Of a stretch of 41,004 bases of DNA, positions 15,625 through 20,503 are shown piece after piece. Each line of letters begins with the position of its first letter. Position 1 is the stretch's first letter. Source of the stretch: Clostridia bacterium (GTDB lineage Bacteria > Bacillota > Clostridia > Oscillospirales > Acutalibacteraceae). The stretch is taken from positions 1 to 41,004 of the forward strand of contig JAFQOJ010000030.1 in NCBI GenBank assembly GCA_017403265.1, written 5' to 3'. Made by a program: the position numbers and the translations under genes. Below the pieces are notes generated by a model. It saw nothing but the letters and a program-made list of their open reading frames with translations. It did not search any database and was not told where the DNA came from.

Positions 15625-18600
15625 TTAGAACATAGATATTTGATTTGTATCGGGGAGTGAGTCAAGCGCGCCTAAATCTGCAAGATTTTGAATAATGGTT
15701 TTAGAAACGCCTGCTTCAAGCTGGAAATCTTCTTTTGAAATAAAATCGCCTTTTTGCGCCGCTTCGTAAATGGAATATGCCGCCTTTTCACCTACGCCCG
15801 AAAGTGCACCAAACGGAAGACGCATTTTGCCATCTTCGGGTAGATACTTCATAGCGTGGGATTTTTCAAGGTCAATTGGCAATATTTCAATTCCCCTTGA
15901 CATCATTTCATTAAAAATAAGCATATTTTCATAAACATCAAGCTCTTTTTGGCTAGCTTCTCTACCCTTATTTTTAATCTCTTCCAAATAACGTCTTACT
16001 GCCGGTATTCCGCCCATTAAGGTAGGAACATCAACATCTTCGGGGCGCGCTGTAAAGTAAGCACAGTAAAATTCGAGCGGATGGTATACCTTATACCAAG
16101 CAAGCCGTAGCGCTCCTATAACATAAGCCGCCGCGTGAGCCTTAGGGAACATATACTTAATCTTATAGCAGCTGCCTATGTACCATTCGGGCACACCAAC
16201 AGCGCGCATATCTTCTTCCATTTGTCCCCATTCTTCTTTTGAAACCTTACCCTTAGCAACCAAGCCTTTACGCACAGTTTCGGTAATTTTAAAGGCTCTG
16301 CCTTCGTCCATGCCCTGATGTATTAAGTACACCATAATATTATCACGCGTACCTATAACTTCGGAAATGGTACAGGTGCCGTTTTCAATAAGGTCCTTAG
16401 CGTTACCAAGGTAAACATCGGTACCGTGGGAAAGACCTGAAATTTGCAACAAATCAGAGAAGTTTTTAGGCTTACAGTCCACAAGCATATCACGAACGAA
16501 CTTTGTTCCAAACTCGGGGATACAGAAGGTTCCCGTTTTAGAATCAATATCTTCGGCAGTAACTCCTAACGCTTCAGGTGAAGTAAATAGGCTATAAACC
16601 TTTTCATCACTCATTGAAACCTTGCTTACGGGTATGCCTGTATATTCTTCGAGATATTTATATGTTGTAGGCACTACATGACCGAGTTCGTCAAGCTTTA
16701 ATATTGTATCGTGGATAGAATGGAAGTCGAAATGGGTAGTAATTACGCCCGATTCCGCCTTGTTAGCAGGGTGTTGTATTGGGCAAAAATCGTAAATAGT
16801 ATTAGTACGCGGTACTACAATCATACCCGCAGGGTGTTGACCTGTAGTAGTTTTAATACCAGATTTTTCTACTAAAGACGCCAATCTTGACAGCTCGGCA
16901 TTACTGAGTGTTATGCCCTTTTTCTCGGCATAAGCCTTTGCAAAACCGAAGGCGGTTTTTTCGGCAACGGTAGAAATTGTACCCGCTTTAAACACATTTT
17001 CACTGCCAAAAAGGGTTTCGGTGTATTTCTGAACTTCGGTTTGGAATTCGTCCGAGAAGTTAAGGTCTATATCAGGCACCTTGTCGCCCTTAAAGCCTAG
17101 GAAGGTTTCAAACGGAATATCGTGACCGTCGCGGTTTAAGGGTGTGTTACAGTGCGGGCAGTTTTTCTCGGGCAAATCGAAGCCCGAGCCAACTTCACCC
17201 TTAGTAAAAAACTCGCTATGCTGACAGTTAGGGCAAACATAGTGCGGTGCTAGGGGATTAACCTCGGAAATACCCGCCATAGTAGCAACAAAGGACGAGC
17301 CAACCGAACCACGCGAGCCAACTAAATAGCCGTTTTCTTCGCTGTAAGCCACCAATTTTTGCGCCGAAATATACATTATAGAAAAGCCGTTGTTGATAAT
17401 TGAATTAAGCTCTTTATCAAGGCGCTTTGCTACAATTTCGGGAACATTCTCGCCGTATTTTTTGTGGGCATTATCCCAACAAATTTCGCGCAACATCTCA
17501 TCCGAGCCTTCAATTACAGGTGGATAGTTACCGTCAGGTACGGGTATAACATCACCGCTTACCATATCAGCAATTTTTTGCGGATTATCTATAACAAATT
17601 CTTTTGCGCGCTCACCAAAGTATGAAAAATCTTCCAGCATTTCCTTAGTGGTTTTAAAATAAAGCGGTGCCTGATAATCAAAGTCTTCAGCTTCGTAGCC
17701 TTGACCCGCCATAAGAATTTTACGGATAATATCGTCGCTCTTTTTAAGAAAATGAACATCCCCCGTAGCAACTACAGGCTTGCCCAGTTTATCGGCTATT
17801 TCTACAATTTTTCGGTTAAAGTTTTTAAGTATTTCTTCATTGGTAATATTACGGAACCTATTAGGTATAACATTGCCCTTTTTATCCTTTTTATCGGGTA
17901 GGCCCGATTCTCTAACCATAAAGTAGTTATTGCCAATAGGCTGAATTTCAAGATAATCGTAATAATCGGCAATTTTTAAAAGCTCTTCTTCGGGCTTGTT
18001 TTCAAGAATAGCCTGAAACAACTCACCCGCTTCACAGGCAGAGCCCACTATCAAGCCTTCACGCAATTCATTCAATTTGCTTTTCAAGGTTAAAGGTCTA
18101 CCTTTAAAGTTGTTCAAATGAGCGTCCGATACTAATTTATAAAGATTTTTAAGACCCACAAGGTCTTTAACCAAAATAATTTGGTGATAGCGCTTAATTT
18201 GCTTGGCATTAAGAGTTGCAACATCTATATCGGTATCGTCTACAAAGTAGCCCTCCATACCGTATATTACCTTAAAATCTCCCCCTGCTTTGCGGATAGA
18301 CTTAACCGCTCCCGCGGCGGCAGGATATGCCTGTACAACGCCGTGGTCGGTAATAGCAACCGCCTTGTGTCCCCATTTATACGCTTGGTTGATAATACTT
18401 TCCGCCGAGCATACCGCATCCTTTTCAGACATATTGGTATGGCAATGAAGTTCTACTCGCTTTTCACCGTCGTAATCGTCGGTCTCAGAGTAGCTTTGCA
18501 AAACCGCCATAGCGTTAGGCTTTAAAATAAAGTCTTTTTTATAGTTATCAAACTCGTAAAAGCCCCTTATAAGCAGAAATGCGCCATCCTTTAATTCGGC

Positions 18601-19437
18601 AATATCGCCCATACGCTTAGGGTCCATAAACATTGAGCAGTTTATGGAGTTTGTGTAGTCTGAAAAAGAAAAGCTTACAATATTACTTTCGCCGCGTTTG
18701 GTATTGATGGTGCGAATTTCTTTTTGGAACACTTCACCCCAACAACAAATTTCATTATCATCGGGAGACACCGAAATCATAGACCTTATATTTTCAAAGT
18801 TTGCACGCCTACCGTAAAACTGCTTAGGATTATCAAGATAAACTATACCGTTTTGTGGCTTGTCGTTGCGTTTTTCAAAAGTAACGCCCTTGCTTTCTTG
18901 CTTTTTTTGCGGTTTAGCCTCTGCTTTTACAGGCGGCTCGGGTAGCGGTATTTCCATTTCAACATCTTCAAGTTGTCCTGTGAATTCTAAGTCACATTCA
19001 ATACCGAAGCGGTTTTTAACAACAATTATAAAATTATTTATAAATCCACTTTCTACTATATGGGCATATCCGCCATGCTTTAAATCTATAAATACTTTAT
19101 TATCATATATTTCATATCCAGCGCCGTTTAAATATCCGTTAACTGCAGGACTTTTAAGCTTCAATTCGTCTGCAATATCCCTACAGGCTTCAACACTAAA
19201 GCTTGTAAAATCAACCTTTACATTACAAGAGTTAAGCTGAAGTGCTTTTTTAAGTGCTACATTAAGCTTTATTTGATTTTCGTGTGTTATGTAATTATCG
19301 CTTTTAATTTTTATATCCAGTGTGCGTTCATCAATATTCAACTTACATTTGCTTAAAAGAGCGTCCTGTAAATTATTCTTTAGTTCATCTTCTGTTATGA
19401 CTTGTGAAAACACATCTAAAAATCGGGGGGTAGCCAT
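15625..19437 (-). CDS. polC: DNA polymerase III alpha subunit, PolC type, lacking the inserted exonuclease domain
   Basis: 1270 residues; typical PolC is ~1430-1450. Order: N-terminal domain (1-165), Pro/Lys-rich linker, OB fold (~195-315), PHP domain (~327-560; VELHCHTNMS, AITDHGVV, YGMEGYFVDD, VVATGDVHFL), polymerase core with GSRGSVGSS (~708), a zinc module with CPNCQHSEFF ... CPHCNTP, the palm aspartates in PDIDLNFSDEF (~788) and LKLDELGH (~914), then fingers and the C-terminal duplex-binding region. In Bacillus PolC a ~160-170 residue DnaQ-like 3'-5' exonuclease interrupts PHP right after the GMEGY-VDD block. Here that point (~400-415) runs straight into YHQIILVKDLVGLKNLYKLVS, so proofreading residues are missing. 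GGAG precedes the ATG. It is the last gene of the pyrH operon, 13 bp after ispG. Confidence 0.95.
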   Translation of the reverse strand: MATPRFLDVFSQVITEDELKNNLQDALLSKCKLNIDERTLDIKIKSDNYITHENQIKLNVALKKALQLNSCNVKVDFTSFSVEACRDIADELKLKSPAVNGYLNGAGYEIYDNKVFIDLKHGGYAHIVESGFINNFIIVVKNRFGIECDLEFTGQLEDVEMEIPLPEPPVKAEAKPQKKQESKGVTFEKRNDKPQNGIVYLDNPKQFYGRRANFENIRSMISVSPDDNEICCWGEVFQKEIRTINTKRGESNIVSFSFSDYTNSINCSMFMDPKRMGDIAELKDGAFLLIRGFYEFDNYKKDFILKPNAMAVLQSYSETDDYDGEKRVELHCHTNMSEKDAVCSAESIINQAYKWGHKAVAITDHGVVQAYPAAAGAVKSIRKAGGDFKVIYGMEGYFVDDTDIDVATLNAKQIKRYHQIILVKDLVGLKNLYKLVSDAHLNNFKGRPLTLKSKLNELREGLIVGSACEAGELFQAILENKPEEELLKIADYYDYLEIQPIGNNYFMVRESGLPDKKDKKGNVIPNRFRNITNEEILKNFNRKIVEIADKLGKPVVATGDVHFLKKSDDIIRKILMAGQGYEAEDFDYQAPLYFKTTKEMLEDFSYFGERAKEFVIDNPQKIADMVSGDVIPVPDGNYPPVIEGSDEMLREICWDNAHKKYGENVPEIVAKRLDKELNSIINNGFSIMYISAQKLVAYSEENGYLVGSRGSVGSSFVATMAGISEVNPLAPHYVCPNCQHSEFFTKGEVGSGFDLPEKNCPHCNTPLNRDGHDIPFETFLGFKGDKVPDIDLNFSDEFQTEVQKYTETLFGSENVFKAGTISTVAEKTAFGFAKAYAEKKGITLSNAELSRLASLVEKSGIKTTTGQHPAGMIVVPRTNTIYDFCPIQHPANKAESGVITTHFDFHSIHDTILKLDELGHVVPTTYKYLEEYTGIPVSKVSMSDEKVYSLFTSPEALGVTAEDIDSKTGTFCIPEFGTKFVRDMLVDCKPKNFSDLLQISGLSHGTDVYLGNAKDLIENGTCTISEVIGTRDNIMVYLIHQGMDEGRAFKITETVRKGLVAKGKVSKEEWGQMEEDMRAVGVPEWYIGSCYKIKYMFPKAHAAAYVIGALRLAWYKVYHPLEFYCAYFTARPEDVDVPTLMGGIPAVRRYLEEIKNKGREASQKELDVYENMLIFNEMMSRGIEILPIDLEKSHAMKYLPEDGKMRLPFGALSGVGEKAAYSIYEAAQKGDFISKEDFQLEAGVSKTIIQNLADLGALDSLPDTNQISMF

Positions 19438-19450
19438 TTTTACAACTCCG

Positions 19451-20503
19451 TTACATTTTTTCTATTTCTTCTACTAATCTATCTAGCAATTCATTTTCTT
19501 GCAGTTTGCAAATAATTTCACCTTTTTTAAACAGTACACCGCAACCCTTGCCGCCGGCAATACCTATATCCGCCGAGGATGCTTCACCCGGACCGTTTAC
19601 AACACAACCCATAATTGCTACGGTAATGTTTTTGTTTACATTCCTAAGTCGTTCTTCTGCCTGTTTTGCAATACCGATTAAATCAATCTCGGTTCTGCCA
19701 CAGGTGGGGCAGGAAACAAATTTTATACCGTCCTGTCTTATTCCTATTGCGTTAAGAAGCCTCTTGCCAGCTTCTACTTCTTTAACAGGGTCGTCAGTTA
19801 AAGATACTCTTATGGTATTACCTATTCCGCGCAAAAGAAGACCTCCGATACCCGCCGCAGATTTTATAACACCCATACTCTCTGTGCCTGCCTCGGTAAC
19901 GCCCAAATGCAGCGGATAACGGCATTTTTCTGCCGCTAATTCGTATGCCTTATACATTTTAAAGGTATCTGATGATTTGAGCGAGAGTACAATATCGGTA
20001 AAATCAAATTTTTCAAGCAATGATATATGATAAAGACCGCTTTCAACCATAGCTTCGGGTGTAACCGCACCGTATTTTGCCAAAATTTCCTTCTCAAGCG
20101 AGCCCGAATTAACCCCTATTCTAATAGGCACTTTTGCATTTCTACAAGCATCGGCTACCATTTTAACCTTACTCTCGTCCCCAATATTACCTGGGTTTAT
20201 GCGTACCTTATCTACACCCGTAGCTACGCTTTCAAGCGCTAGGCGATAATCAAAATGAATATCGGCTACAAGCGGTATTTTAATATTTTCTTTTAATGCC
20301 TTTACGGTTTTAAGGGCCTCCTTATCAGGAACGGTAACACGCACAATATCGCACCCCGCGGCTTCGAGCCTAAGTGCTTGCGCTACATTACCCTTTATAT
20401 CGTGAACAGGCACACAAAGCATAGACTGCACGCTTACAGGTGCGTCACCGCCTATATAAGTGTTGCCAACCTTTACTTTTACAGTATCCTTGTTAGTGTA
20501 CAT
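19451..20503 (-). CDS. ispG: 4-hydroxy-3-methylbut-2-en-1-yl diphosphate synthase (flavodoxin) IspG/GcpE
   Basis: 350 residues. It reduces methylerythritol cyclodiphosphate to HMBPP in the MEP isoprenoid pathway, using a 4Fe-4S cluster. A TIM-barrel half is seen at VSVQSMLCVP, VADIHFDYRLAL and KVRINPGNIG. The C-terminal half has the three cluster cysteines in SCPTCGRTEID (Cys265, Cys268) and IMGCVVNGPGEA (Cys300), plus the conserved glutamate that follows. Length matches short, bacterial-type IspG. ATG 20503 has a clear AGGAGAT site, 8 bp after the rseP stop. Confidence 0.95.
   Translation of the reverse strand: MYTNKDTVKVKVGNTYIGGDAPVSVQSMLCVPVHDIKGNVAQALRLEAAGCDIVRVTVPDKEALKTVKALKENIKIPLVADIHFDYRLALESVATGVDKVRINPGNIGDESKVKMVADACRNAKVPIRIGVNSGSLEKEILAKYGAVTPEAMVESGLYHISLLEKFDFTDIVLSLKSSDTFKMYKAYELAAEKCRYPLHLGVTEAGTESMGVIKSAAGIGGLLLRGIGNTIRVSLTDDPVKEVEAGKRLLNAIGIRQDGIKFVSCPTCGRTEIDLIGIAKQAEERLRNVNKNITVAIMGCVVNGPGEASSADIGIAGGKGCGVLFKKGEIICKLQENELLDRLVEEIEKM

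Follow-up and report, generated by a model that had tools for sequence, protein, structure and literature searches.

PolC is otherwise known as a replicase with a built-in DnaQ exonuclease. The polC gene described here encodes a PolC that does not have one, which raises the question of what, if anything, corrects the mistakes of this polymerase. The first-pass annotation of the sequence offered three options: proofreading is lost, a separate DnaQ-type protein supplies it, or the PHP domain of the polymerase does. The window (the whole stretch of DNA that was analysed, 41,004 nucleotides) is contig C26 in the genome of an uncultured gut clostridium, an assembly of 1.70 Mb in 74 contigs that is 87% complete.

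The polC gene and its missing exonuclease

The protein encoded in the window is PolC by two curated NCBIfam models, PRK00448 (1397 bits, cut-off 873) and TIGR01405 (1263 bits, cut-off 1043). The gene, its parts and its upstream neighbour are:

15625..19437, minus strand: polC, PolC-type DNA polymerase III alpha subunit without exonuclease; an intact ORF of 1270 aa
18964..19425, minus strand: N-terminal domains NI and NII, residues 5–158 (Pfam)
18541..18711, minus strand: OB fold, residues 243–299, under the Pfam cut-off
18241..18453, minus strand: PHP domain, first part, with ligands H331, H333, D340, H365 and E395
18190..18234, minus strand: junction that replaces the DnaQ-type exonuclease, 15 residues (402–416)
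17638..18189, minus strand: PHP domain, second part, with ligands H418, C468, D560 and H562; domain end approximate
17758..17760, minus strand: codon of D560, the PHP aspartate aligned with N in two solved PolC chains
16948..17496, minus strand: polymerase catalytic region PF07733, residues 648–830
17053..17076, minus strand: palm motif PDIDLNFS, within the PF07733 region
16681..16701, minus strand: second polymerase motif LKLD, outside the PF07733 region
16204..16641, minus strand: finger domain, residues 933–1078 (Pfam)
15652..15894, minus strand: tandem helix-hairpin-helix, residues 1182–1262 (Pfam)
15628..15642, minus strand: C-terminal QISMF, putative beta-clamp binding motif by resemblance, read from the sequence
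19451..20503, minus strand: ispG (GcpE), upstream neighbour of polC

NTD-I (PF14480) is above the Pfam cut-off; NTD-II (PF11490) is a weak match and, like the OB fold, falls under it. All of these lie N-terminal to the PHP domain. The putative clamp motif may be compared with the consensus QL[S/D]LF (PMC3919608). Further upstream of ispG, Pfam identifies an M50 peptidase, dxr, a cytidylyltransferase and frr, and ispG precedes polC in relatives too. The first-pass annotation took the rest of the polymerase to be intact, and this is borne out by the full-length ORF and by Pfam matches to the polymerase, finger and helix-hairpin-helix domains.

The window PolC has no built-in DnaQ-type exonuclease, as had been claimed. 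The PHP domain is a single continuous Pfam match (residues 329–493), and no RNase_T domain was found in the protein by Pfam up to E=1. Exonuclease motifs elsewhere in the protein had been considered, but a simple pattern scan found the DEDDh patterns DxET, HNxxFD and H[HR]AxxD nowhere in it. The block YFVDD ends at 18235 and the block YHQIILV starts at 18189, which confirms both the site of the junction and the spacing of about 15 residues first reported. Across an alignment of 198 PolC, the segment that begins five residues past E395 and runs to H418 is bimodal in length – 7–29 residues in 95 proteins and 192–220 in 103, with no intermediate insert length in the set. The missing piece is therefore nearer 190 residues than the 160–170 originally estimated. 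Fifteen loci were omitted from the 198: nine in which the longest frame was not PolC, five that were fragments or partly fetched, and the window's own (L005). Identical proteins were merged, and near-identical copies of the same species from two collections may remain.

An alignment with relatives revealed the same gap. The junction is without an insert in 32 of 36 genomes of the same genus (31, and G002 by its frame), and the remaining four (G003, G005, G013, G029) give no sequence there. PolC was suspected to be absent from G013 and G029; the G013 contig stops 36 bases past ispG, G029 (like G003) has no ispG match, and missing sequence is the simplest reading for both. Those nearest among the named records are metagenome-assembled Clostridia and Oscillospiraceae; a number of them come from the guts of ruminants, and L035, from a sheep-rectum bin, is the closest (87% protein identity). 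An assembly error that dropped some 500 bp, or a deletion confined to this genome, might be suspected in a genome that is 87% complete and in 74 contigs, but the idea is already refuted by the relatives and can be given practically no weight: the junction recurs across the genus and in named records from other projects, and the reading frame is kept throughout.

Probable exonuclease loss among the Clostridia

PolC of this kind has already been described. Timinskas 2014 reported that 6% of PolC have no Exo, that these proteins are confined to Clostridia and Negativicutes except for an extra copy in Thermotogae, and that 16% of the PolC + DnaE1 set have no internal exonuclease; the exo-less proteins were still counted as PolC (PMC3919608). 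The window gene fits this description: its PolC has no Exo insertion, and the clostridial genome around it encodes a DnaE as well. The published proteins share with it the NTD, OB, PHP, Pol3 and HhH regions, a DnaE1-like partner and a conserved PHP metal site, and no difference in kind between them and the window PolC was found (PMC3919608). What is added here is the window genus and a count of separate changes.

The count comes from a tree built on the polymerase core only (108 rows, 811 columns taken from residues 430–1270 of the window PolC; model LG+G4, quick search). The rows are a chosen subset in which the window and four others represent its genus, and 11 named near-copies were removed. 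On this tree the presence of the exonuclease needs 11 changes, of which at least 9 are forced by well-supported branches, and a topology that gathers every exo-less row into one clade is rejected (AU p 1.7e-5). A branch with 100% support unites the window genus with G178, from an exo-bearing genus in its family, and loss is therefore the parsimonious history for this lineage – most simply, an ancestor of the window lineage lost the DnaQ-type exonuclease, although the change counts alone fit loss or gain.

By fetched sequence, the other exo-less groups are f1/g30 and g35, f19/g19, f24, f2, f26, f30, f35, f37, f46, f50/g221, f70, f71 and f81. Three of these families, f1 (that of the window), f19 and f50, include exo-bearing genera as well. 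Across 292 genomes drawn from the class, at least 39 had the exo-less pattern, a single match across the junction, among the matches listed.

Candidate proofreaders

The first candidate is the PHP domain itself. All nine of its metal ligands (HHDHEHCDH) are present in the window PolC, which answers the question of completeness raised by the first-pass annotation and, of its three options, favours an active PHP domain. The pattern HHDHEH[C/H]DH was called active by a 2026 survey, which credits most Clostridia with three proofreaders that appear active (PMC12926913). The nine ligands are intact in all 95 exo-less PolC and in all 103 exo-bearing PolC; D560 is D in 198 of 198, and D364 is likewise invariant among PolC. 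In the alignment, the position of D560 is N in two solved chains, 3f2b (Geobacillus) and 9qpc. By motif spacing, D340 is presumably the match of D23 of Mycobacterium tuberculosis DnaE1. That residue is named in PMC5636811, where the D226N change in the same enzyme is reported to abolish exonuclease activity, and where the PolC of Geobacillus kaustophilus (Gka PolC) is described as having one mutated PHP ligand and no exonuclease activity. By our reading of motif and alignment, D226 would correspond to D560, and the N at this position would be the mutated ligand of Gka PolC.

The 3f2b chain aligns to window residues 215–1270 (E 0) and runs through the junction with a GSGSG stretch, and the Exo is missing from this chain (PMC3919608, legend of Figure 1). 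A PolC without the exonuclease thus folds. Unlike the window PolC, Gka PolC has a DnaQ-like exonuclease inserted in a loop of the PHP domain, beside the active site (PMC5636811), and the PHP domain of 9qpc is in two separated halves. M. tuberculosis DnaE1 shares with the window PolC the nine PHP ligands and the proposed way of working, but it is a DnaE rather than a PolC, its PHP loop is longer (29 residues), and its PHP exonuclease, the replicative proofreader of that organism, has been demonstrated experimentally (PMC5636811), whereas that of the window PolC is predicted.

Ligand conservation is the same whether or not the exonuclease is present, and hence does not show a special reliance on the PHP domain after the loss, and the domain is possibly conserved for structure (PMC3666897). 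The ratio of PHP to polymerase divergence does not shift consistently after exonuclease loss either: it is 1.34 in the window genus vs 1.73 in exo-bearing kin of the same family, 2.68 in exo-less f19 vs 2.38 in exo-bearing f19, and 1.04 vs 1.05 (exo-less vs exo-bearing) with one representative per group.

The second polymerase of the genome provides the main rival to PHP proofreading by PolC. The window genome has one PolC and one DnaE, the latter one of the genes that the first-pass annotation had suggested searching for. All nine PHP ligands are present in this DnaE, which is probably of type DnaE1, to judge from the intact pattern. The DnaE search covered 38 genomes, chosen rather than random, of which one (G484) had no DnaE match at E<=1e-60. 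Thirty-seven DnaE were fetched, the window genome's own among them: 31 come from exo-less genomes and 6 from exo-bearing ones. The PHP pattern is complete in 36 of these, and the 37th is cut at a contig start. In the rival explanation, PolC proofreading is lost or weakened, DnaE1 with its intact PHP copies most of the chromosome accurately, and PolC plays a smaller part, its PHP domain being mainly structural. Timinskas 2014 raised this for PolC + DnaE1 systems, in which the role of PolC was called unknown, and took the exo-less PolC as a hint (PMC3919608). The complete ligands of the window's own DnaE and the absence of a consistently tighter constraint on the PHP domain of PolC agree with it. 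So does family f10 of the same order, where DnaE may suffice: no PolC was found at E<=1e-100, among the matches listed, in 12 of 12 genomes at least 85% complete. Against it, polC is kept beside ispG in G028, G033, G025, G054, G037 and G002, the polymerase motifs and N-terminal regions of PolC are retained, and the nine PHP ligands are invariant in 95 of 95 exo-less proteins, though the two solved chains show that one ligand can change. On balance we consider this explanation rather unlikely, if still a serious competitor.

Family f10, which includes G045, G068 and G085, may run on DnaE alone. ispG was found in all four f10 genomes searched for it, and G045 has no RNase_T-family match.

A separate DEDDh exonuclease that proofreads PolC in trans would fill the same role as E. 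coli DnaQ (epsilon). The window genome has only one RNase_T-family match, a KapD-like protein of 293 aa, and no other DnaQ-like gene was found in this 87% complete genome. KapD is the nearest model, but the score (50 bits) is far under the cut-off (169). The gene adjoins one read by eye as typA/bipA. The protein is presumably also Eri1-like. That it is the only such match in its genome counts in favour of proofreading in trans, as does its distribution in the genus – across 37 genomes, own included, there is exactly one RNase_T match in 32, two in G011 and none in 4. Four of the genus proteins were read and all are KapD-like; the others were judged by length and match range alone. Five KapD-like rows (four from the genus and one from G168), however, stand apart from the PolC exonucleases and other DnaQ with 100% SH-aLRT, and genes of similar size and score (length and score only) are also found in exo-bearing kin, so the KapD-like gene was probably not gained as a replacement. 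The suggestion of a separate DnaQ is not supported in the window genome, in whose 87% complete sequence the search for a stand-alone gene of this type came back with the KapD-like match only.

The RNase_T survey covered 75 clostridial genomes, chosen rather than random (49 exo-less, 26 exo-bearing). There is no PF00929 (RNase_T) match at E<=0.001 in 22 of the 49 exo-less genomes, including G403, which is one contig and 100% complete. G023 (97% complete) and G224 (99%), which likewise have an exo-less PolC, show no RNase_T match whatsoever, which also speaks against a proofreader in trans. Strong stand-alone DnaQ-like genes (70 bits or more, a line set after the table was inspected) are present in 16 of the 49 genomes without a PolC exonuclease and in 5 of the 26 with one. 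This is not an enrichment (Fisher p 0.28), and the comparison contains just 5 independent pairs, too few to decide. Certain exo-less groups do have such genes – f19/g19 (3 of 3 genomes), f2 (6 of 7) and f35 (2 of 2) – which counts in favour of a proofreader in trans; the proofreader may therefore differ among lineages. The stand-alone DnaQ of f19 and f2 do not nest with the PolC exonucleases of exo-bearing kin; fission of the domain into a gene of its own is possible in this short domain, where many forks are unresolved. For the window PolC, proofreading by the KapD-like protein seems quite improbable.

That the genome encodes an additional, exo-bearing PolC is less probable still, and the idea hardly deserves credence. 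The one observation in its favour is from G011 (same genus), where a 613 aa frame at a contig end has the exonuclease and PHP parts of a PolC, but that frame starts with an apparent phage terminase (by eye) and ends where the contig does, no second case of this kind occurs among 37 genomes, and the window genome itself shows a single PolC. Second copies that could be read whole in two other genomes of the genus (G031 and G020) have no exonuclease.

The G011 frame (L363:7337-9175, at the end of G011:C29), in which the terminase N-terminus is fused to the PolC exonuclease and PHP, is possibly chimeric and possibly real. The protein in G031 (L364:5079-7811, G031:C2) is a PolC-like protein of 910 aa that lacks the NTD, OB and exonuclease. 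Its PHP ligands HHDHEHCDH are perfect, while its palm (PDINLNIS) and its GSRGS stretch are changed; it looks polymerase-dead and PHP-intact. Its neighbours, a DnaB_C-type ATPase and a WYL-domain protein, may indicate a defence context; a viral-contig scan with this protein gave no relative. The G020 protein (L365:5122-7335, G020:C139), of 737 aa, has the palm PDIDINCD and has lost the PHP ligands. Nearby are a PD-(D/E)XK protein, with a match to the PADLOC candidate PDC-S26, and an ORF resembling a mobilisation relaxase (by eye). Among the matches listed there are further second PolC-like copies in two f8 genomes, L366:6652-9224 (G043:C2) and G067:C9:4316-6658; in the G043 copy the palm reads SPEFYFNF and the gene seems split over two overlapping ORFs. 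A PolC-like fragment at a contig end in G029 (L367:3541-4131, G029:C9) lies beside YpsA/SLOG and HAD_SAK_2 genes, perhaps an accessory setting. Outside these genomes, MT836562.1, an unannotated 9.7 kb "Bacteriophage sp." record from human faeces, has a match to PolC that runs unbroken over 3.7 kb. This PolC is therefore probably exo-less, and the record is perhaps a piece of bacterial chromosome.

Probable PHP proofreading and the clostridial replisome

With the PHP ligands complete both in PolC and in the single DnaE, PHP proofreading is the favoured option. Proofreading by the PHP domain alone is the best reading for the window PolC, and we hold it to be more probable than not. Under this reading, clostridial PolC would usually carry two nucleases able in principle to proofread: the PHP domain, which depends on zinc, and the DnaQ domain, which depends on magnesium. 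If the PHP domain is able to proofread, the DnaQ domain would be dispensable and could be lost several times. In the window organism, PolC would use its own PHP site to remove the mismatched primer ends that it makes, DnaE1 would do likewise with its PHP, and MutS-type mismatch repair would stand behind both. MutS was found in 45 of 45 genomes, 28 of them from the window genus including its own, and mutS1 clears the cut-off in the window genome and in each of the 27 others searched in its genus.

An exonuclease-deficient PolC of Staphylococcus aureus is the subject of PMC3656037. A search of titles and abstract beginnings in the open-licence literature returned no experiments on a clostridial PolC that naturally lacks the exonuclease or proofreads through its PHP domain.

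The broader claim, that whole clostridial lineages including the window genus have no DEDDh proofreader and that their PolC and DnaE1 rely on PHP alone, has in our estimate about an even chance of being right. If it is true, the PHP domain works beside a redundant DnaQ in most species, which would explain up to about ten losses. Inhibitors of PolC are being developed for use against Gram-positive pathogens (PMC12592400). Should PHP be the proofreader of clostridial PolC, the exo-less species are natural deletion experiments. They could show whether a zinc-dependent PHP nuclease alone keeps a two-polymerase replisome accurate, and, to take up a point raised by Timinskas 2014 as an open one (PMC3919608), whether PolC or DnaE1 copies most of the DNA.
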